From NCBI RefSeq assembly GCF_014695975.1, contig NZ_JACJPI010000058.1, positions 372,001 through 436,000 on the forward strand: a stretch of 64,000 bases of DNA. The letters are read 5' to 3'. The DNA is from Leptolyngbya sp. FACHB-321 (GTDB taxonomy: Bacteria; Cyanobacteriota; Cyanobacteriia; Leptolyngbyales; Leptolyngbyaceae). The stretch's first letter is position 1; every line of letters starts with the position of its first letter. Below the pieces are notes generated by a model. It made no database searches. It saw only the letters and a list, made by a program, of their open reading frames with translations, and was not told the origin of the DNA. Shown here piece by piece: positions 4,885 through 22,332 of this stretch. The position numbers and the translations under genes are program-made.

Positions 4885-4968
4885 GTGTCTGCATCATTTT
4901 TCTAAAGTGCCGTTTTCCAAAGTGCCGTCAAATCATTGCTTTTGTGCAACTCTACCCTCCTTAAACCG

Positions 4969-7866
4969 ATGCCTCCAGCTAACTTACCTGAAAACGAAAC
5001 GGCTAGACTGGCAGCTCTGTGCCAGTACAATATTCTTGATACTCCGGCTGAAGCTGCCTTTGACGAGATTGCTACGCTAGCGGCAGCGCTGTGTGATACG
5101 CCGATCGCTCTCGTCAGCCTGGTTGACAGTACACGTCAGTGGTTCAAAGCCAAAATAGGCTTGGCGGTGGAGGAAACGGAACGAGAAGTTGCCTTTTGCG
5201 GTCATGCGATTCTTCAACCTGATTTACTGATCGTGCCGGATGCGTCCCAGGATCAACGGTTTGCTGACAATCCTTTCGTGCTTGACGATCCTCAAATTCG
5301 CTTTTATGCTGGCGCACCGTTGCTGACCGCCGAAGGGCATGCGATGGGAACCCTGTGCGTTATTGACAGCGTGCCTCGTGACCTTAGCTTAGAGCAAGCA
5401 CAAGCGCTGCGGGTTTTAGCACGTCAGGTGATGACCCAGCTTGAACTCCGTCGCCATGTAAAAGATCTAGCTCAGACCGTCACTCAAGTCACTGAGTCCG
5501 AGCGGGCATTGCAGATCGCGCAGGCTACTTTAGAAAGCCAAGTGAGCGATCGCACAGCCGCACTGGTGCAAACGAACGCCACCCTACAGGTTGAAATTAA
5601 TGAGCGGTTACAGGCTGAAAAGCAACTGCAACAACAGGTCGAGCATAACCGCTTGTTAGGGGCGATCGCGGCACGCATTCGGGAGTCACTACAGCTAGAT
5701 GACATCCTCCAGACGGCCGTGGCTGAAGTCCGTCACTTTTTGCAGGTAGACCGGGTTGCACTGTATGAAATCGAGGTCAACCAGGGTGGCAGGTTTGTGG
5801 TGGAATCTGTTGCTCCTGGCTGTCCGTCGATTCTCGGTTTGGTCTTGCACGATCATTGTTTTGAGACGGATTATGCTGCCCAATACCAACAGGGTCGCAT
5901 CAGTGCTATTGATGATATCGAGCAGGCAGAGCTAAGCCCTTGCTACCGTGAAGTGTTGGCTCCCTTAAAGTTACGCGCCTTACTGCTAGTTCCCATTATC
6001 TTTAAGGAGCAACTGTGGGGTTTGCTCTGTATGCACCACTGTTCGGCACCACGTCCCTGGCAAGACTTTGAGCTTAGTGCGCTGCAACAACTCGCTACCC
6101 AAGTCGCGATCGGGATGCAGCAAGCGCAACTGTTTCAACAGGTGCAACAGCAAGCCCAACGAGAGCAGTTGCTCAATCAAATCAGTCGAGCGCTTAATGC
6201 CAGCCTCGATCCAAACCACATCCTACAGGAAATTGTTAACCGGATTGGAGCCTGTTTCAGCGTTGAGCGAGTCGTTGTTTTTGCCCTCGTAGCCGAACAA
6301 ATGCAGGTGTTAAATGAATGGCGAGCCAACGATCAGGTTGCCTCTCTACTGCATTGCAGAGCGCCACTTAATCTGTGGACAGCATGGCTGGATCCAACGT
6401 CTGCTTGCTACGCTCCTCAGCTTTTTCAGATGCCGTTGCTTACGGCAGAGCAGCCCGTAAGTACCGAGCCAGGGCAACAGCCATCGCCATCGCTAGCGGT
6501 CTTGCATGTACCGATCAATATTGGCGACCAGTTCTTGGGAGGGCTTTGTCTCCACACGACAGCCAGCCAACATACCTTTACAGCCGATGAGTTGAGCTTG
6601 TTAGAACAGATTGCTGCACAAGCGGCGATCGCCCTTTGTAATGCTCAGAGCTACGAACGGCTGGAACAGTTAGTGCAGCAGCGCACTCAAGCCCTAGAGC
6701 AAGAAAAACTACGTTCAGAAGCAGCTAATCGTGCCAAAAGTGAATTTCTTGCCAACATGAGTCACGAACTGCGGACACCGCTCAACGCCGTTTTGGGACT
6801 CTCGCAGATGCTACAACGCGAGTTGTTTGGTTCGCTCAATCCTAAGCAGCAAGAATACGTTACTTGCATTCACAGCAGTGGTAATCATCTGCTCTTACTC
6901 ATTAATGACATTCTGGATCTAGCCAAAGTGGAGGCTGGCAAAGAAGAACTAGCACTGTTACCACTTTCAGTATCAAAACTTTGTGCGTACTGCCTCACTC
7001 TGGTACAGGAGCGAGCCTTTGAACAAGGCTTACGACTCATCAGCCATATTGATCCTAGAGTCAGCTTCTGCATGGCAGACGAGCGTCGCCTCAAGCAAAT
7101 CTTGATCAATCTGCTCTCGAATGCCATCAAGTTTACATCTGTTGGTGACGTGTCGCTGACTGTGCAAAAGCAGCCCCAAGGTCTGACCTTTACGGTGTCT
7201 GATACGGGTATTGGTATGGCTGAAGCGCAGATCCCCTTGCTGTTTCAGCCGTTTGTGCAGTTAGATAGCCGCTTGAATCGGCGGTATGAAGGCACGGGAC
7301 TGGGGTTAGCCCTGGCACGCGAGCTAGCGCAACTGCATGGTGGCGATATTACCGTCGAGTCAACATTAGGGCAGGGCAGCCAGTTTACGCTTTACCTACC
7401 GGACGAACCACCAGGGCTAAAGCAAATTCAACCCGTGACAAACCTCCTGATACCCTCTCCTCGCCGTACTCTCAGCCAGCGGCAAACAGCGTCTTCTCGT
7501 CGCATCTTAGTTGTGGAGGATGATATTGCTAGTGCGATGCTCCTCCAGGACTTTTTACAAGCTTTGGGGCACCGGGTTGAGCATTGGGCGGATGGCAGCA
7601 ACTTTCTAGAGCGGGTGCAGTTGTTCCGCCCAGCCTTGATTTTACTGGATGTCCAATTGCCCCACGGCATCACAGGGTTCGACTTGCTGACAGCGCTACG
7701 GCAGGAAGCCGCTTTGTACCAATTGCCAGTTGTGATGGTGACTGCAATGGCAATGCAAGGCGATCGCGAACGTTGTTTAGCAGCGGGCGCAACTGACTAT
7801 CTCAGTAAACCGATCCAAACTGTCCAAATTGAGTCGCTCTTGTCGCAGTATCTCTCTGTAACCTAA
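4969..7866 (+). CDS. GAF-GAF-GAF hybrid histidine kinase with C-terminal receiver
   Basis: A 965-residue soluble hybrid sensor kinase. An in-frame TTG lies at 4936, but ATG 4969 (MPPANLPENETARLAAL) matches the usual start of this family. Domains in order: GAF (about 25-165), a coiled coil, a phytochrome-like GAF (about 225-395), a third GAF (about 410-560), HisKA with [10 protein letters not shown] (His at about 599), HATPase_c with GTGLGLALARELAQLHGG, and a receiver with phosphoacceptor Asp at about 894 (LILLDVQLP). The second GAF has Cys325-Tyr326 at the position where bilin-binding GAFs carry Cys-His. No membrane segment. It directly follows the FIST/kinase pseudogene. Confidence 0.9.
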   Translation: MPPANLPENETARLAALCQYNILDTPAEAAFDEIATLAAALCDTPIALVSLVDSTRQWFKAKIGLAVEETEREVAFCGHAILQPDLLIVPDASQDQRFADNPFVLDDPQIRFYAGAPLLTAEGHAMGTLCVIDSVPRDLSLEQAQALRVLARQVMTQLELRRHVKDLAQTVTQVTESERALQIAQATLESQVSDRTAALVQTNATLQVEINERLQAEKQLQQQVEHNRLLGAIAARIRESLQLDDILQTAVAEVRHFLQVDRVALYEIEVNQGGRFVVESVAPGCPSILGLVLHDHCFETDYAAQYQQGRISAIDDIEQAELSPCYREVLAPLKLRALLLVPIIFKEQLWGLLCMHHCSAPRPWQDFELSALQQLATQVAIGMQQAQLFQQVQQQAQREQLLNQISRALNASLDPNHILQEIVNRIGACFSVERVVVFALVAEQMQVLNEWRANDQVASLLHCRAPLNLWTAWLDPTSACYAPQLFQMPLLTAEQPVSTEPGQQPSPSLAVLHVPINIGDQFLGGLCLHTTASQHTFTADELSLLEQIAAQAAIALCNAQSYERLEQLVQQRTQALEQEKLRSEAANRAKSEFLANMSHELRTPLNAVLGLSQMLQRELFGSLNPKQQEYVTCIHSSGNHLLLLINDILDLAKVEAGKEELALLPLSVSKLCAYCLTLVQERAFEQGLRLISHIDPRVSFCMADERRLKQILINLLSNAIKFTSVGDVSLTVQKQPQGLTFTVSDTGIGMAEAQIPLLFQPFVQLDSRLNRRYEGTGLGLALARELAQLHGGDITVESTLGQGSQFTLYLPDEPPGLKQIQPVTNLLIPSPRRTLSQRQTASSRRILVVEDDIASAMLLQDFLQALGHRVEHWADGSNFLERVQLFRPALILLDVQLPHGITGFDLLTALRQEAALYQLPVVMVTAMAMQGDRERCLAAGATDYLSKPIQTVQIESLLSQYLSVT

Positions 7867-11726: not shown

Positions 11727-11759
11727 TCTAGCAAAAGCCGATCGTTGAAGGATGGAACA

Positions 11760-14700
11760 ATGCTGAACCGCGAAGTTGCTCAGGCTCAATTGCGTACTGT
11801 TCATGTTACCGCTTGGCGATCGCAACGCATTCAACGCATGGGCAGTTTGCCCGAGCCATTACAAGTTGTCGGGTATGGCATTTTTGGCTGTAGCGCTGCG
11901 GGTCAGCGGTTAGACTCGCCTGAGTCCTATAAAGTGCAGGAGCGATCGCTAGAGCAACTTGATGCGCTGGCACCGAGCGATCGGCTCCAAATTCTAGCGG
12001 TCATTTTTCCTAAATTTGCGCTTACGGTTGAAGCCGCCTGGCAACTGAACGCGCATTTGCCCTATCAAACTGGTTACAGTCGGCGATCGTTTCGCAGTCC
12101 ATCGCATCCAGAACTCAGTGCAGACAGACGACGCAATTGGTTTCAGCAACTCATTACTGTAGTGGAGGGTTACGACCAGGATTTAGAGTGGTTCGTTGCT
12201 TGGACACCGTACCTGCATTACTATGCGTCTGATGTGTTGGGCATTTTGTTTGCAGCGGCGATCAATCAGAACGATATGCTAGGGCAAACCATTTTTGATA
12301 CCTTGCTTGCTTCAGCGAATGGCAATCATGAAATTGGAGCGATGGGACGGCATGTAACCCGTGCCTTGCTGGTTGCTAACCGAGAAGACGGTTGGGATTT
12401 TATGGAACGCTTGTTGCTGGCAGCGCAACGGCAAGAAGGACTGCGGCAAACCATTTTGGAGACGATCGACGAAGCCCATCCGATCGCGTTTCGGCGCATG
12501 GTGCGGCTAATCGTAGAGCACAATCTGACTCGCTTCAGTGCGACCATTCGCGCCGTGGATGTGTGGTTTGGCTTTGGGCTGGAAGCGCTCAACGAAAAAG
12601 TTGCCAAACAACTGCTGAGCCAGGTGCTTGAATTGCTGGAAAACCCTGAGGCTCAAGCCACTGCGTTACAGTCTGACGATTCTCAGACGGTGTATCTAGC
12701 GCTGTGGGCGATCGGCTTTGAGGATGCCATTGCCGCGATCGCCTGTGTCGTCCCATTACTTGACCATCCTCAGACAACCCATCGGTTTGTCGCCGTGCAT
12801 TTTCTGGCTCAGCTAGACATCACACCTGCCAGATTGCTGCTGCTGCCTGCGGTGAGCGATCGCGCGTTGGAAGTCACGACCTGTGCGGTGCAGGCACTAT
12901 GCGCCAACGATACAACGATTCAAAACGACTCAGATGCTTTTGAGCGACTGGAGCAGGCATTACCCTACTTTCCTGACAGACCAAAGCCGCTGTCGATCGT
13001 TTGGGAGTGGATTAAGCTTGAACCGAGTCAGCATTTAGTTGCGTCAGCACTGGTGCAAAATTTGGGGCAGCGATCGCCCAAACGGTTAATTCCCTATCTA
13101 CCCTATCTCGATTCATCTGGCCGTAGCCGCATTGCCCGACTGTTGGCAGAACTCAAGCCCTGGGACAGCGAGATTCGCGCTGTAATGTTTGATCTGGTCG
13201 GTGATGCCAGCAGTTGGGTGCGCGAACAGGTAATGCGACTTTTACAACAGCATGGTGCGATCGCTCCTGAAGAAGGCATCCAGCTCGAACAGTTGTTGAC
13301 TCGTAAGGCAAGCGATCTGCGACGGGGCATTCTGGGTTTACTGCTCAAACAACCGGATGAAGTGGCGATCGCGTCTGCACAGCGACTCGTAGAAGCCAAA
13401 CAAGCCCCTCAACGACAGGCAGGCTTGGAACTCCTGCGAGAGTTGGTGCAGCAGAACCGCTTGCTCGATCGCGCCCGTAGTTTGGCAACCGACTATCAAA
13501 CCACGCGCTCAAAACTCACCGTTACAGAAACGCAGTTGCTCAACGGCATTCTGCAAACCGAAACCGAAGCTACACTGACTGATGCGCTGGGTCTGGTCAA
13601 GCTTGATGACTTAACCCCGATCGCCCCTCCACAAGTCCTGTCAACTCCCATCATTAGCACTCCAGCCGCGATCAAATGTCTTGTCGCGTTGGATGAGCTA
13701 ATCCACGAGCATCGCCAAACGCCCATCCAACTGATTGACCACAACGAAGAAAACCTGTTGGGCAATCTCTCCTGGAAATTTCCTCGCGTTCATTTTCGTC
13801 TGTCACTAGAGGAAAACTTGGCACGCTTGCCATTGAGTGATGTTTGGGAAAACTGGTGGCGCGATCGACCCGATACTCTCCGCGATCAGGATGGGTTGGA
13901 ACTGCTGCGGGCGATCGCGCCGCGCTTTGATTACCGCACTAATTCGTTCGTATCGGACGTGGTGTCGAGTAGTGAATCAGATCCTAGCCTGAGCGATCGC
14001 GTCGTCACGGATCTGCAAGCGCTCACGAGGCAAGAGATGTCGTCCCTGCGCTATTCGCAACAGATAGACAGTGTGATTCGCTGGTTGCTGTATCTACATC
14101 CGCCTGCTCAGATCTTTAATTTTCTGCTAGATGCGATCAGTGAAATTCTTAATACCATTCCCCTCAAAGAACTTGATCGTGATCCGCAGTGGCGCGACCT
14201 TAACTTCGATGGCGTGAGAAGGCAGGTAAGTGGGTTTGCTGACAACTGGATTCGTTTCGCTCGATCTTACCAGTCTTACGAGGATGCCGATCAGCACGTC
14301 CGCTGGTGGCATCTAGTTCGGTGGGTCGATCAATTTTCGCCCACAGATCGAGGGTATCGGTATGCCATGACAACGCTCTGGGATGTGTTGAATGCTTATC
14401 AAGCTGGAGGCGCAACCGAAGCTGACCTGATGTTTTACCTGTTGGGTGCAGAGGAGCGCATCACTGAGGGTGATCAAACATCTGGAACAGCAGAGGCAAA
14501 AGCCAATCTTAGAACCTCGTTTCAGGATTTGTCACACCTGACGCGCCGTAAAGTGCCCGATGATTATGTAGCGCATCCGTTCTTGCTGTCACTGGCTGAT
14601 CGCGCCCGAAAGCGCATCCTGGCGATCGAACTGCAACGGGGTGATCTCCCAACCGCCGCCTCGAATGCCGCTCGTGCCTTGAAGTCGATCGTCGGCATGT

Positions 14701-16712
14701 CCACCGTCATCCAACTGCTTCAATCCTTCGATCGCAACAAGCTGGTACGCCACTACTCGTACAACAGTCTCAGCAAAGCCTCGGTCTTCAGTCATTTGAT
14801 GCGGATCAGCTTTCCCGCCGCAGACGACACCCCAGCTGAGTTTGCGCTGCGCGTGCAGTCGGCTCAAATCAAGCCAGAAAACCTGATTCAGTTTGCTTTC
14901 TACGCGCCTCAGTGGGTCAACTACATCGAACAGGCGCTCGGCTGGGATGGCTTTGCCGAAGTCGTCTGGTGGTTTCACGCTCACACTAAAGACAACGGCT
15001 GGACGGTCGAAGCCGATGTCCGCGAAACCTGGGTGGCGCAGATTAGTGAACGGACACCCCTCTCGGCTAGAAGCCTAGTTGAAGGTGCGGTGGATGTTGC
15101 CTGGTTTCATCGCCTCTACAAACTGTTGAACGCTGATCGCTGGCAGCAACTTTACGAAGCGGCGCAATACGCCTCCAGTGGTGCCGGGCACCAACGCGCC
15201 AAACTCTTTGCCGATGCCATGTTGGGCAACCTGGACACGAAGAATTTACGCGATCGCATTACCCAAAAACGGCATCAAGATTCGATTCGGGCATTAGGGT
15301 TGCTGCCGCTGGCAAAGGGCAAACAGCGCGATCGGGATATTCTCGATCGCTATCAAGTGCTGCAAGACTTTCTCCGCACCAGCAAAAAGTTCGGCTCCCA
15401 ACGACAGGCAAGTGAAAAACTAGCCGTCGCGATCGGCATGGAAAATTTGGCACGCACGGCTGGCTTTGTTGACCCCCAACGGCTCCAGTGGGCAATGGAA
15501 GCAGAGGCAATCGCCGATCTAGTTGGTCAAGCACAGGTGGTAACGATTGGGGAAGTCAGCGTCAGTCTGGCAATTACTACCGAGGGCACCCCAGAAATCA
15601 CCGTTGTCAAAGCAGGCAAACCGCTAAAAGCCATTCCCGCCAAGCTCAAAAAACAGCCTGAGATTCAAACGCTAACTGCTCGTAAACAAGAGATTACTCA
15701 GCAAGCTTCCCGCATTCGCCTCTCGCTAGAACAAGCCATGTGTCGCGGCGATCGCTTTACGGCAACTGAATTGGTGCAACTGGCGAAACATCCCGTGCTG
15801 TTTCCCATGCTGAGTCAGTTGGTATTAGTTGGCGACAGCGAAGTAGGCTATCTTGTTGAACAGGGAACAGCCCTGCAAGACCATAGCCAGGTTGTCACAC
15901 CCATTCAATCGGCTGAACTCCGCCTTGCCCATCCCCATGATTTGCTGCTGCAAGACTGGCATTTGTGGCAACAGGACTGTTTTAATGTCGATCGCATCCA
16001 GCCCTTCAAGCAAGTCTTTCGCGAACTCTACCTTACTACGGCTGCGGAGCAGTCAGAACCCGCTTGCCGCCGCTATGAAGGACATCAGGTGAATCCTCGA
16101 CAAGCACTGGCACTGTGGGGACAACGCGGTTGGATTGCGGCTCCTGAAGAAGGCGTTCGCCGTACCTTTCACGCTGAAGGGCTGATTGCTGCGGTGGAAT
16201 TTCTCAACGGCTTTTACACACCGCTTGAAGTGGAAGGGCTAACTATTGCAGGAGTGCGCTTCCATCACCGCGACGATTGGAAAGCTCTACCACTCAATGA
16301 GATTCCACCACGCCTCTTTAGCGAAGTGATGCGCGATCTCGATCTGGTCGTCAGTGTGGCGCATCAAGGCGGCGTTGATCCAGAGGCAACTGCTTCCACC
16401 ATTGAAATGAGAGCGGCTCTAGTACGCGAAACCTGTCGCCTGCTGAAGCTGCACAACGTTCAACTACAAAAGTCTCACGTGTTGATCGAAGGACAACTCG
16501 GCAGTTATTCGGTGCATTTGGGCAGCGCGATCGTGCATCGGCAACCAGGTGGCGCACTCTGCATCGTGCCCGTTCACTCTCAACATCGCGGCAGACTTTT
16601 TCTGCCCTTCGTTGACAATGATCCCAAAACGGCTGAAGTGGTTTCTAAAGTACTGCTACTAGCACGAGACAAAGAGATTCAAGACCCAACAGTTTTAGAG
16701 CAGCTTTTGTAA
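11760..16712 (+). CDS. Giant DUF4132 protein with HEAT-like helical repeats
   Basis: A 1,650-residue soluble protein. The ATG at 11760 has AAGGA seven bases upstream and is preferred over an in-frame TTG at 11745. The first ~650 residues are helical repeats of HEAT/armadillo type (VVPLLDHPQTTHRFVAVHFL, then MRLLQQHGAIAPEEG). The C-terminal ~450 residues carry the DUF4132 (MolR-like) signatures, including LLPLAKGKQRDRDILDRYQV, KKFGSQRQASEKLAVAIGM and IQPFKQVFRELYLTT. DUF4132 is of unknown biochemical role; homologues have been linked to molybdate metabolism and to conflict-type gene clusters. No AAA, vWA or SWIM partner is adjacent. HIP1 sites are dense within it. Confidence 0.8.
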   Translation: MLNREVAQAQLRTVHVTAWRSQRIQRMGSLPEPLQVVGYGIFGCSAAGQRLDSPESYKVQERSLEQLDALAPSDRLQILAVIFPKFALTVEAAWQLNAHLPYQTGYSRRSFRSPSHPELSADRRRNWFQQLITVVEGYDQDLEWFVAWTPYLHYYASDVLGILFAAAINQNDMLGQTIFDTLLASANGNHEIGAMGRHVTRALLVANREDGWDFMERLLLAAQRQEGLRQTILETIDEAHPIAFRRMVRLIVEHNLTRFSATIRAVDVWFGFGLEALNEKVAKQLLSQVLELLENPEAQATALQSDDSQTVYLALWAIGFEDAIAAIACVVPLLDHPQTTHRFVAVHFLAQLDITPARLLLLPAVSDRALEVTTCAVQALCANDTTIQNDSDAFERLEQALPYFPDRPKPLSIVWEWIKLEPSQHLVASALVQNLGQRSPKRLIPYLPYLDSSGRSRIARLLAELKPWDSEIRAVMFDLVGDASSWVREQVMRLLQQHGAIAPEEGIQLEQLLTRKASDLRRGILGLLLKQPDEVAIASAQRLVEAKQAPQRQAGLELLRELVQQNRLLDRARSLATDYQTTRSKLTVTETQLLNGILQTETEATLTDALGLVKLDDLTPIAPPQVLSTPIISTPAAIKCLVALDELIHEHRQTPIQLIDHNEENLLGNLSWKFPRVHFRLSLEENLARLPLSDVWENWWRDRPDTLRDQDGLELLRAIAPRFDYRTNSFVSDVVSSSESDPSLSDRVVTDLQALTRQEMSSLRYSQQIDSVIRWLLYLHPPAQIFNFLLDAISEILNTIPLKELDRDPQWRDLNFDGVRRQVSGFADNWIRFARSYQSYEDADQHVRWWHLVRWVDQFSPTDRGYRYAMTTLWDVLNAYQAGGATEADLMFYLLGAEERITEGDQTSGTAEAKANLRTSFQDLSHLTRRKVPDDYVAHPFLLSLADRARKRILAIELQRGDLPTAASNAARALKSIVGMSTVIQLLQSFDRNKLVRHYSYNSLSKASVFSHLMRISFPAADDTPAEFALRVQSAQIKPENLIQFAFYAPQWVNYIEQALGWDGFAEVVWWFHAHTKDNGWTVEADVRETWVAQISERTPLSARSLVEGAVDVAWFHRLYKLLNADRWQQLYEAAQYASSGAGHQRAKLFADAMLGNLDTKNLRDRITQKRHQDSIRALGLLPLAKGKQRDRDILDRYQVLQDFLRTSKKFGSQRQASEKLAVAIGMENLARTAGFVDPQRLQWAMEAEAIADLVGQAQVVTIGEVSVSLAITTEGTPEITVVKAGKPLKAIPAKLKKQPEIQTLTARKQEITQQASRIRLSLEQAMCRGDRFTATELVQLAKHPVLFPMLSQLVLVGDSEVGYLVEQGTALQDHSQVVTPIQSAELRLAHPHDLLLQDWHLWQQDCFNVDRIQPFKQVFRELYLTTAAEQSEPACRRYEGHQVNPRQALALWGQRGWIAAPEEGVRRTFHAEGLIAAVEFLNGFYTPLEVEGLTIAGVRFHHRDDWKALPLNEIPPRLFSEVMRDLDLVVSVAHQGGVDPEATASTIEMRAALVRETCRLLKLHNVQLQKSHVLIEGQLGSYSVHLGSAIVHRQPGGALCIVPVHSQHRGRLFLPFVDNDPKTAEVVSKVLLLARDKEIQDPTVLEQLL

Positions 16713-18981: not shown

Positions 18982-20115
18982 TTAACTCGACGCCGTTCTT
19001 TCTAGTTGACCGTTTATCGTTTGGCGTTGGGGTAGTTTAACGGTAATGCTTGTTCCTACGCCCTCTTCACTTTCTATGGCAATTTGCCCATTGTGCAAAT
19101 CCAAGCATCGTTTTACCATCGTCAGCCCTAGCCCAGTACCAGGAATATCGCCGACGTTATCTGCTCGCTGAAAAGGTTCAAATAAATGCTTTTGTGTATC
19201 AAGCGGAATGCCAATGCCCGTGTCTCGCACTTGGAACGTAACTTCTTCAGCCATGCAGGAAAGATCGAAATCGATCGGGCTACCTGGATGAGAATATTTG
19301 ACTGCGTTTGAAATTAAATTCGTCAGAATGTGTCTGAGGAGCTTAGGATCTAAACAAGCATCCTCACATTGCCCCTGGCTACGGAACGTGATGGCATGGT
19401 TTAATCCTGCACTAAATTGAACTTCCTCCACCAGTCCTCGACAGAACTCTTCTAAATCTAATGGTGCTGGCTCAAACCTTAAACTTCCGCCTTCGACGCG
19501 ACCCACAGACAATAGATCGTTCAACAATTGATCCATCGAGCGGACTGATTGTTGAATCATGTATAAGAATTCGCGTCGTCGTTCTTCTGTTAGCCTGTGA
19601 TTTTCCTGCTCAAGTAGTTGGGCACAACTCAAAATCGATGTCATTGGGCTTCTAAGCTCATGCGCTGCCATCGACCAGAACCGGGATCTTAGCTCACTCA
19701 ACTCTTTTTCTTTTTCTAGGGCGACCCGAATAGCCATTTCTGATAAGCGGCGGCGGAGTGCAATTTCGATCGCCACTTGTAAGTCTCGCTCATCAAACGG
19801 CTTCACGATATACCCAAAGGGTTCTGTTACTTTTGCCCGCTGTAGGGTGGTTGCATCAGCATAGGCTGACAAATAAATAACCGGCGTACCAAAAACGACT
19901 CGAATTTGTTCCGCTGCTTCGATACCATCCATGCGACCTTTGAGTCGGATATCCATCAAAACTAAATCGGGTCGGCATTCCGCTACCTTTTCAAGCGCTG
20001 CTTCTCCAGAGGCAACCGATGCGGCTACGACATACCCCAGCTTTTTTAAGCGCTTCTCGATGTCTCGAGCAACAACTCTTTCATCCTCAACAACTAAAAT
20101 CTTTTCAGCAGCCAC
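18982..20115 (-). CDS. Receiver-HisKA-HATPase signalling protein
   Basis: A 377-residue protein with an N-terminal receiver (about 5-120; phosphoacceptor Asp in LVLMDIRLKGRMDG, Lys in YIVKPFDERD), a HisKA helix pair (MAAHELRSPMTSILSCAQLL) and a HATPase_c domain (NLISNAVKYSHPG, then GTGLGLTMVKRCLDLHNG). It receives a phosphoryl group and can probably phosphorylate itself. It starts with GTG only a few bases after the stop of the upstream kinase gene at 20119, so the two form one operon and the upstream kinase is its likely phosphodonor. Confidence 0.9.
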   Translation of the reverse strand: MAAEKILVVEDERVVARDIEKRLKKLGYVVAASVASGEAALEKVAECRPDLVLMDIRLKGRMDGIEAAEQIRVVFGTPVIYLSAYADATTLQRAKVTEPFGYIVKPFDERDLQVAIEIALRRRLSEMAIRVALEKEKELSELRSRFWSMAAHELRSPMTSILSCAQLLEQENHRLTEERRREFLYMIQQSVRSMDQLLNDLLSVGRVEGGSLRFEPAPLDLEEFCRGLVEEVQFSAGLNHAITFRSQGQCEDACLDPKLLRHILTNLISNAVKYSHPGSPIDFDLSCMAEEVTFQVRDTGIGIPLDTQKHLFEPFQRADNVGDIPGTGLGLTMVKRCLDLHNGQIAIESEEGVGTSITVKLPQRQTINGQLERTASS

Positions 20116-20118
20116 TTA

Positions 20119-22320
20119 TTATCCCTTCCCAGTAGTTTCTAGTTCTGAAAATTGAATCGTAAAGGTTGTCCCCGTTCCGTTAGTCTGATGGCATTCGATC
20201 TTCCCCTCTAGCTGCTCGGTGAAGATACAGACTAATTCTAAGCCAAGTGATTCTGTGTTGCGGAAGTCTACGTCTGGTGGAAAGCCAATCCCATTATCTT
20301 GAACGGTTAATGTATAGCGATTGTCAGTGATGGGAGAAAGCTTAATGAAGATTTGGTTTTCTAACTTTGGGGCTGGAAAGGCATGTTTTAAGGCATTAGA
20401 AACTAACTCATTGATGATTAAGCCACAGGGGATGGCTGTATCAATATTGAGCCAAACGTCGATCGCCTCGGTGCTCAGCGTTGCAGACTGCGAACTCGCC
20501 GTATAAGACCGCAGCAGAGTGTCTGCTAAGTCGCGGATGTATTCATCAAAGTTTATCTTGAGCAGGTTATTCGATTGATGCAGCTTTTCATGAATCAGCG
20601 CCATGGAACGAATCCGGCTTTGGCTGTCCTTGAACAGTGCGAGCACTCGATCGTCCTTGATATAGTCTGATTGCAGTCTTAAGACACTCGAAATCACCTG
20701 GAGATTATTCTTGACCCGGTGATGGATTTCTTTCAGTAAGACTTCCTTTTCTTTCAAGGATTGCTTTAGTTGCTCCTCCGTTCGCTTGCGCTCCTTGAGT
20801 TCGTTCTGAACCTGCTGATACAGCTCTGATTGTTGAATGGCGATCGCCATATGTGTTGCCAGTTGCTTCAGTAGGTCAACTTCAAACTGCCGCCATCGTC
20901 TGGGTCCAGAGCAGTGATAGGCGCACAACAAACCCCACAGATGGTCTCCTTGCAGGATTGGTACGACTAAGCTAGCCCGAACATCATATAAAACCAGAAT
21001 GTCGATATGACACTGCGTTAAACCAGCAGTGTAAATATCCTCACAAACTTGAGTCCGTCCTTCTTTGTACGCCCGGGCGTAGTTTTGTCCAAAGCACGTA
21101 TCCCGAATGCTGCTGTTGAGTGCTGGTCTCCAGCCCTTCTCTACCGACTCGACTACGGTTGTGCCGCTCCAGTCAGGGTGAAACTGGTAGATAATCACTC
21201 GATCGCTTTTAAGGAACTGTCGGACCTCTTCTACACTCCTTTGAAGGATCTCATTAAGGTTAAGGGACTCCCGAATATGTAGCGCCATCGCAGCTAGAAT
21301 GCGGCTGCACTGCAATTGTTCTAGCAAACTTACCGGATTCTCTAGCAACTGAATGTCTAGGGTGGGTGCCGAGTTTGGATCGGGTTCGGCGCTTGAGACC
21401 TCAAACTGCTTGATCGATCGATGCAGTTGCTCTACAGCGTTGTGCATCTCGTCTATGTCCAACGCCTCCAGGAAACTTGTTGGTGAGACAACTCCTAAAA
21501 GCTCACCCTGATTACCGTACACCCCAAACCGCTGTACTTTTGTTTGCTGCATTTCCCAGTAGGCAACTAAGACTGATTCAGAGGACGCAAAGTGCAGGAA
21601 GGGAGCGCTCATCACTGCTTGAGCTTGTATCTGCGCTAAGTTCAGCCCTAACGCCCAAAGCTGAAGCATATGCCGCTCTAAAATTAATCCTACGGGGTGA
21701 GCATCATCCTGGCTATCGTCCGTTAGCACAATGTAATCAACTTGATGGTTCATCATCAGTTGAGCTAACTCAAAAATGGACGTTTTTGCGGGTGCTTGAA
21801 CAACTGGCGGAGAAACAAGCTCTGCTAAGGACTTTGCTTTTAGTAATTCGTCTAGCTGTAAGACATTACGAAGACTTGCCGGAGTAACGATGCCGAGCCA
21901 TTGCCCCTCCTCATTCATTACAGGCAGATGATGAATCTGATGTTGACGCAACTGAGCTAGGGCAGTAAAAACAGTTTGATCAGCCGCTTGAGTCAAGACA
22001 ATGGCAGGTTGTCGCACCACGTCAGCGATTTTTGTCGCCGTTAAATCTCGTCCTAAGACGATCGCCTGTAGTGCGTCTTGCTCGGCGAATACCCCCACGA
22101 CCTGCGTCCCTTCCACAATTAGAAGACCACTTGCGCGTGCTTCGCTCATCAATATGGTACTGAGCGAGAGTTCTAAACCTGGCAGAACGCAACTGCTCTG
22201 CGCTTTGCTCATCATCATGATTGCGTCACTAAGGGATGTATCAGGAGATACGGTCAGCGGACGTCGATCAATGGCAGGGTCTAACGACAGAAAAGAGTTT
22301 GATACGTTTTGCGAATTCAT
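20119..22320 (-). CDS. CBS-CBS-GAF-HisKA_2 sensor histidine kinase, candidate photoreceptor
   Basis: A 733-residue soluble sensor. ATG 22320 is preferred over a TTG 12 bases upstream. Two Bateman modules (four CBS motifs, about residues 20-290; for example QHQIHHLPVMNEEGQWLGIV) are followed by a phytochrome-like GAF (about 340-505), a short coiled coil and a HisKA_2-type dimerisation domain with EIHHRVKNNLQVISS (His at about 533-534), then HATPase_c (LVSNALKHAFP). The GAF domain carries Cys437-His438 in AGLTQCHIDILVLYDVRASL, the position of the bilin-attaching Cys-His of cyanobacteriochromes. CBS modules commonly bind adenine nucleotides. First gene of a two-gene operon. Confidence 0.9.
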   Translation of the reverse strand: MNSQNVSNSFLSLDPAIDRRPLTVSPDTSLSDAIMMMSKAQSSCVLPGLELSLSTILMSEARASGLLIVEGTQVVGVFAEQDALQAIVLGRDLTATKIADVVRQPAIVLTQAADQTVFTALAQLRQHQIHHLPVMNEEGQWLGIVTPASLRNVLQLDELLKAKSLAELVSPPVVQAPAKTSIFELAQLMMNHQVDYIVLTDDSQDDAHPVGLILERHMLQLWALGLNLAQIQAQAVMSAPFLHFASSESVLVAYWEMQQTKVQRFGVYGNQGELLGVVSPTSFLEALDIDEMHNAVEQLHRSIKQFEVSSAEPDPNSAPTLDIQLLENPVSLLEQLQCSRILAAMALHIRESLNLNEILQRSVEEVRQFLKSDRVIIYQFHPDWSGTTVVESVEKGWRPALNSSIRDTCFGQNYARAYKEGRTQVCEDIYTAGLTQCHIDILVLYDVRASLVVPILQGDHLWGLLCAYHCSGPRRWRQFEVDLLKQLATHMAIAIQQSELYQQVQNELKERKRTEEQLKQSLKEKEVLLKEIHHRVKNNLQVISSVLRLQSDYIKDDRVLALFKDSQSRIRSMALIHEKLHQSNNLLKINFDEYIRDLADTLLRSYTASSQSATLSTEAIDVWLNIDTAIPCGLIINELVSNALKHAFPAPKLENQIFIKLSPITDNRYTLTVQDNGIGFPPDVDFRNTESLGLELVCIFTEQLEGKIECHQTNGTGTTFTIQFSELETTGKG

Positions 22321-22332
22321 ACAAACGGTCAA

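Follow-up and report, generated by a model that had tools for sequence, protein, structure and literature searches.

Cyanobacteriochrome domains of the DXCF type hold two cysteines, a canonical one and a second one that bonds reversibly to C10 of the bilin (PMC11284453, PMC4067208, PMC4223177), and typical members are described as forming phycoviolobilin and switching between blue and green (PMC11284453). In Tlr0924 (SesA) the two cysteines, Cys499 and Cys527, lie 28 residues apart (PMC4067208, PMC4223177) and the output is a diguanylate cyclase (PMC8846402). On the CBS side, CNNM2 fixes a nucleotide in its CBS domains by Thr and Asp residues that contact the ribose (PMC6429129), and CBS2 of AMPK gamma, with Arg for the ribose-binding Asp, binds no nucleotide (PMC5535039).

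Several solved structures offer comparisons for the protein studied here. The blue/green DXCF domain of TePixJ (3vv4, 4glq) was deposited as a methyl-accepting chemotaxis protein. The closest solved GAF domain by sequence (47% identity over 175 residues) belongs to a dual-sensor histidine kinase (6oap/6oaq/6ob8), which has DQYF in place of DXCF and hence no second cysteine. A related kinase module is found in EL346 (blue-light-activated histidine kinase 2, 4r39; E 3e-15, residues 528-727 of the 737-residue query), the photoreceptor domain of which is of another kind. We take the EL346 sensor to be a LOV domain and the other sensor domain of the 6oap/6oaq/6ob8 kinase to be PAS, not CBS; Tlr0924 presumably has CBS domains ahead of its GAF domain. 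CBS is not mentioned in the text of PMC4067208.

The locus described here lies in a 64,000-nucleotide stretch of the Leptolyngbya sp. FACHB-321 genome (the window) and very probably encodes a histidine kinase of the cyanobacteriochrome family that senses colour and has four CBS repeats in its N-terminal part. The best explanation, to which we assign a probability of about 0.8, is that the protein is a cyanobacteriochrome histidine kinase of the dual-cysteine DXCF type, the CBS scaffold of which is degenerate and the partner of which is a REC-kinase. No described example of a CBS-cyanobacteriochrome kinase was recognised in a search that covered part of the literature. The GAF domain shares its D-X-C-F and C-H motifs, 28-residue spacing and predicted fold with TePixJ (4glq, Z 24.3, rmsd 2.1 over 149 residues), and its DXCF motif and cysteine spacing with Tlr0924, but it is joined to a HisKA_2 histidine kinase. 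The CBS repeats have the predicted four-CBS fold of sso3205 (3ddj), MJ1225 (3lfz) and AMPK gamma (Z about 22-25), but differ in that the T/S-x-x-D ribose-binding signature is incomplete in all four motifs.

Domain layout and the bilin-type GAF domain

The gene occupies 20119..22320 on the minus strand, as do all features given below unless marked (+), and is an open reading frame of 733 codons plus stop, with an ATG start, encoding 733 aa. The ATG at 22320 was preferred over an in-frame TTG at 22332 because the orthologues also have Met there. The initial annotation had placed CBS modules ahead of a GAF domain and a HisKA_2 kinase after it, and Pfam agrees, with four CBS motifs, one GAF, HisKA_2 and HATPase. 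The whole protein scored above the curated cut-offs for CBS (93.5 bits, two stretches passing), GAF (93.8), HisKA_2 (98.9) and HATPase_c (52.5); when the CBS region was split, its halves scored 57.7 and 49.7 bits (cut-off 24), with three and two CBS stretches once the E-value limit was relaxed to 10. The first Bateman module (CBS1-CBS2, residues 20-155, 21856..22263) and the second (CBS3-CBS4, residues 158-300, 21421..21849) are supported by these halves, the motif alignment and a predicted four-CBS, AMPK-gamma-like fold. They are followed by the bilin-type GAF domain (residues 341-505, 20806..21300; Pfam, solved-structure matches, tree and predicted fold), a linker helix to the kinase (residues 506-528, 20737..20805) within a predicted helix spanning 478-551, the HisKA_2 dimerisation/phosphoacceptor domain (residues 531-606, 20503..20730) and the HATPase_c domain (residues 634-725, 20146..20421; Pfam). 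The H-box, EIHHRVKNN, is identical in all eight family members with sequence extending that far; L061 is truncated before it. Structure prediction from 59 aligned sequences gave a mean pLDDT of 82.6 and a pTM of 0.45; at this low pTM, the model predicts the folds of the domains but not their relative placement.

Eight distinct orthologues were found besides the window protein: L058 (Phormidium tanganyikae), L059 (Phormidium tenue FACHB-886), L060 (FACHB-502), L061 (FACHB-63, cut by a contig end), L029, L030, L151 and L152. L150 and L153 have the sequences of L058 and L061 respectively, and each pair was counted once. The distribution of the gene is patchy. There was no full-length match in any of six other genomes of the genus; at family level 7 of 42 genomes (counting that of the window) had a match at E 1e-100 or better, with that in G066 being a longer, different frame and that in G412 a contig-end fragment; and in a phylum sample members occurred in 3 of 386 genomes (the window's included; G000, G191 and G068). 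Across seven aligned rows (the window protein and six others, of which one stops at the end of its GAF domain), invariant positions number 105/165 in the GAF domain, 56/78 in HisKA_2, 48/98 in HATPase, 49/136 in the first CBS pair and 43/143 in the second. Conservation is much stronger in GAF and HisKA_2 than in the CBS pairs.

Cys437-His438 (21007..21012) does sit at the position of bilin attachment, as the initial annotation had it, according to both a residue check and alignment with solved cyanobacteriochrome GAF domains; Cys437 is the canonical cysteine and His438 the histidine next to it. That annotation overlooked a second cysteine, Cys409, in the DXCF motif D407-T408-C409-F410 (21091..21102). 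The spacing of 28 between Cys409 and Cys437 equals that in the TePixJ row of the 3vv4 alignment. D407, C409, F410, C437 and H438 are identical in 9/9 proteins (window protein and eight orthologues), and the key residues are kept even in the orthologue least similar to the window protein (58% identity overall). The first matches of the GAF domain among solved structures are cyanobacteriochromes, with E-values from 3.8e-52 (6oap) to 9.6e-28 (RcaE) and 6.3e-35 for TePixJ (3vv4). The predicted fold of residues ~328-505 matches 6oaq (Z 26.1, rmsd 1.6 over 175 residues), and the 6oaq/6oap/6ob8 GAF is among the two best by predicted fold. Against the dual-cysteine reading, the two top-scoring solved GAF domains, 6oap and miRFP670nano, have no second cysteine. 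The homology of the GAF domain to known cyanobacteriochromes, its canonical Cys followed by His and the absence of PHY from the families listed in the Pfam scan, together with a second Cys in Asp-X-Cys-Phe, place the protein by sequence among the DXCF cyanobacteriochromes.

Three other assignments were dropped. A chance Cys-His pair does not fit the matches to solved cyanobacteriochromes or the 9/9 conservation of key residues; the red/green (XRG) type would carry W-X-D-X-X-L, in place of which stands I405-R-D-T-C-F; and a phytochrome was set aside as PHY was not among the eight families listed in the Pfam scan.

The remaining pocket residues gave a divided answer. Arg422, which corresponds to Arg507 of TePixJ, is kept and is invariant in the seven aligned rows. 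However, Asn413, Tyr414 and Ile441 stand at the positions of TePixJ His498, Trp499 and Gln526, the first two of which are described as propionate contacts (PMC6955287), and the bilin pocket therefore differs in part from that of TePixJ. This difference could be taken to mean that the GAF domain is degenerate, having lost bilin binding in favour of another ligand or a role as spacer, with the cysteines as relics. Such loss does happen, as one or both cysteines are missing in 8 of the 37 other CBS-GAF proteins sampled and in 21 of the 33 other aligned GAF domains of this genome. We nevertheless regard it as very improbable for the window protein, in the family of which both cysteines, the Asp and the His are fixed in all nine members while the CBS and HATPase parts drift, and the nearest solved relatives of which are bilin proteins.

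The window GAF falls in one large tree group (97/91) with TePixJ and red/green domains, within which the inner, deep branches lack resolution; TePixJ was the sole characterised DXCF domain included, and the tree does not pick out the nearest DXCF lineage. Because cysteine-less GAF domains share the same tree region, tree position alone is not proof of bilin binding. Sequence, predicted fold and conservation among orthologues nonetheless give strong support to the reading as a photoreceptor, and the predicted type, a DXCF dual-cysteine domain, is narrower than the one initially proposed.

The genome is rich in GAF domains. From 110 GAF matches, 48 loci or stretches were taken and 36 domains passed the filter; among the 33 others in the alignment, 12 have both cysteines, 11 of them with the Asp as well. 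L116 (contig C54:545993) combines W-N-D-T-H-L with C-H, is red/green-like and groups with red/green domains in the tree. Within the window, a hybrid kinase at 4936-7866 (+) contains GAF domains, HisKA, HATPase and REC, and one of its GAF domains (L110), with D-H-C-F and C-Y, is a possible dual-cysteine cyanobacteriochrome.

CBS repeats and their nucleotide signature

According to the initial annotation, sensing of both light and adenylate by one polypeptide would be notable. Among the cyanobacteria sampled, it is common for a CBS-GAF protein to have both cysteines (29 of 37 others, some with another residue for the Asp or Phe of D-X-C-F), and the genomes thus show the combination of CBS and cyanobacteriochrome to be an established one. 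These regions were hand-picked, not random, from matches with E-values up to 1e-60; L084 and L085 failed the filter and are outside the 37, and five of the 37 frames are cut by a stretch end. Nine of the 37 were scanned with Pfam and are HisKA kinases (mostly after PAS), hybrid kinases, GGDEF-EAL proteins or HisKA_2 proteins. By a simple H-box pattern, HisKA_2 occurs among the 37 in L086 only, where a further GAF and a PAS lie ahead of it; among the proteins sampled, the direct CBS-GAF-HisKA_2 fusion is found in the window family only. Seven shorter CBS-GAF proteins (L071, L072 and L079-L083; 805-839 aa), with a GAF domain lacking both cysteines, form one tree group (100/99) and are probably a non-bilin branch; the two scanned end in HisKA kinases.

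The CBS motifs of the window protein come with a predicted CBS fold over residues 9-298, matching 3ddj, an AMP complex (Z 24.9, rmsd 2.8 over 261), and MJ1225 3lfz (Z 23.9, rmsd 2.9 over 252). By alignment, T/S-x-x-D is incomplete in each of the four: CBS1 (GVFAEQD, A79/D82) lacks the Thr, CBS2 (GIVTPAS, T146/S149) and CBS4 (GVVSPTS, S279/S282) lack the Asp, and CBS3 (GLILERH, L214/H217) lacks both. Relatives were compared in 36 rows, seven from the window family and the 29 other dual-cysteine proteins, leaving out the eight of 37 without one or both cysteines. The signature is intact in CBS1 of 27/29 and in CBS3 of 29/29 of the others; in CBS2 and CBS4 the Thr/Ser is present in every one of the 36 rows, but the Asp in 0 and 1 respectively.

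These counts bear on the model of the initial annotation, in which the protein combines light and adenylate sensing and a CBS-bound nucleotide sets the gain of a light-regulated kinase. The AMPK-gamma/MJ1225-like fold of the four repeats speaks for it, as does the Thr/Ser kept in CBS2 and CBS4, and the intact CBS1 and CBS3 signatures of the other proteins suggest that the wider CBS-GAF family may sense nucleotides. For the window protein, however, adenylate sensing is left unsupported because none of its motifs keeps the signature that its dual-cysteine relatives keep. In addition, CBS1 is whole in two of the nine family members (L059 and L030) and CBS3 in one (L030), and no other domain is as poorly conserved as the CBS halves. 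We therefore consider the combined sensor improbable, and the branch of the window protein probably does not sense nucleotides, or not by the usual means. Loss of the motif does not prove loss of binding, and the CBS sites may bind a ligand despite the change. With this reservation, the window protein appears to sense light and not light and energy together.

The signature loss is not uniform, since L059 retains CBS1 and L030 both CBS1 and CBS3. In place of the CBS3 signature, L152 has S-x-x-N and the other seven of the nine have Arg-His. In a CBS-GAF tree with 10 of the 29 other dual-cysteine proteins as outgroup, L030 splits first (other eight 100/99) and L152 next (other seven 97/99). From this branching and the motif states, the simplest history has the signature intact in the ancestor, the CBS3 Asp lost once L030 had split off, and the CBS1 signature lost piecemeal. 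A more speculative proposal, which we hold to be rather unlikely, is that an ancestral integrator of light and nucleotide turned into a kinase that senses light alone or binds a different ligand, the four-CBS fold being kept and the CBS3 Arg-His (7/9) forming a new contact or ligand site. L030, which splits off first among the nine, still has the intact signature, as do most of the outgroup proteins.

The adjoining REC-kinase

The receiver-kinase noted initially as the next gene was recovered as REC-HisKA-HATPase by Pfam (18982..20115, 377 aa; REC D55 and HisKA H152 by orthologue alignment). Its GTG start lies three bases past the stop of the first gene. The pair is kept in all seven other loci with downstream DNA (L029, L030, L058, L059, L060, L151 and L152), with the REC-HisKA-HATPase gene no more than 10 bases downstream, as judged from sequence at five junctions and from coordinates at the other two. 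Receiver Asp55 and HisKA His152 are kept in 6/6 aligned partner proteins, the window's included. The window's partner starts with GTG; in the five aligned orthologues an ATG stands at this position or is shifted by one residue.

Outside the pair, the long flanks of L058, L059 and L060 gave only weak or short matches to window frames at 12000-34000, besides antisense frames of the pair itself. A separate frame at 11745-16712 (+) encodes a 1655-aa protein with DUF5724, DUF4132 and DUF7737. That the two genes stay together while their surroundings differ argues for the REC-HisKA-HATPase protein as a functional partner of the light-sensor kinase. We infer that phosphate may pass between the two kinases; the "complete relay" of the initial annotation may likewise operate, but no output protein acting beyond the REC-kinase was identified.

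Proposed photocycle and significance

The genome encodes one heme oxygenase and one Fe-bilin reductase family protein (PF05996), each gene being found once, and both are needed for making bilin. From the computed domains, both cysteines, their conservation, the predicted domain folds, the gene pairing and the loss of the CBS signature, we infer chromophore binding, colour, signal direction and phosphotransfer as follows. The GAF domain would attach phycocyanobilin via Cys437, and addition of Cys409 to the C10 bridge would give a blue-absorbing dark state. Upon illumination the bilin would isomerise and the second thioether break, giving a longer-wavelength state, probably green, so that the protein is probably a blue-absorbing, blue/green light-regulated kinase. 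The change would travel along helix 478-551 and alter autophosphorylation of the HisKA_2 kinase, with the phosphate most likely going to Asp55 in the receiver of the adjoining REC-HisKA kinase. The four CBS repeats would form an AMPK-gamma-like disc that has lost the canonical nucleotide signature and probably serves as a dimer scaffold, or binds another ligand.

The colour itself leaves room for a bilin photoreceptor with another photocycle, one that retains phycocyanobilin (blue/orange or blue/red) or in which the second cysteine forms no adduct. This overlaps with the best explanation, colour being the sole difference, and we treat it as a possible, if tentative, alternative. We know of no rule for reading DXCF colour from sequence alone. 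Tlr0924 itself is mixed, one population carrying phycoviolobilin (blue/green) and another phycocyanobilin (blue/red) (PMC4223177). On the other hand, the DXCF motif here is shared with domains for which phycoviolobilin formation and blue/green switching are described as typical (PMC11284453), and TePixJ carries the same C-H pair. The blue/green dual-cysteine kinase thus remains our preferred reading.

Many cyanobacteriochrome GAF domains are preceded by CBS modules, and no description of what these modules sense there was found in the part of the literature covered. The most useful new point is the apparent loss of a nucleotide signature within one orthologous family. This group offers intact and degenerate CBS versions alongside a conserved dual-cysteine switch and a fixed partner kinase, and the role of nucleotides in colour sensing is therefore open to comparison. 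If the proposed passage from an ancestral integrator were true, L030 and the window protein would represent the states before and after the change, a natural contrast from which to measure the function of CBS modules in cyanobacteriochromes.
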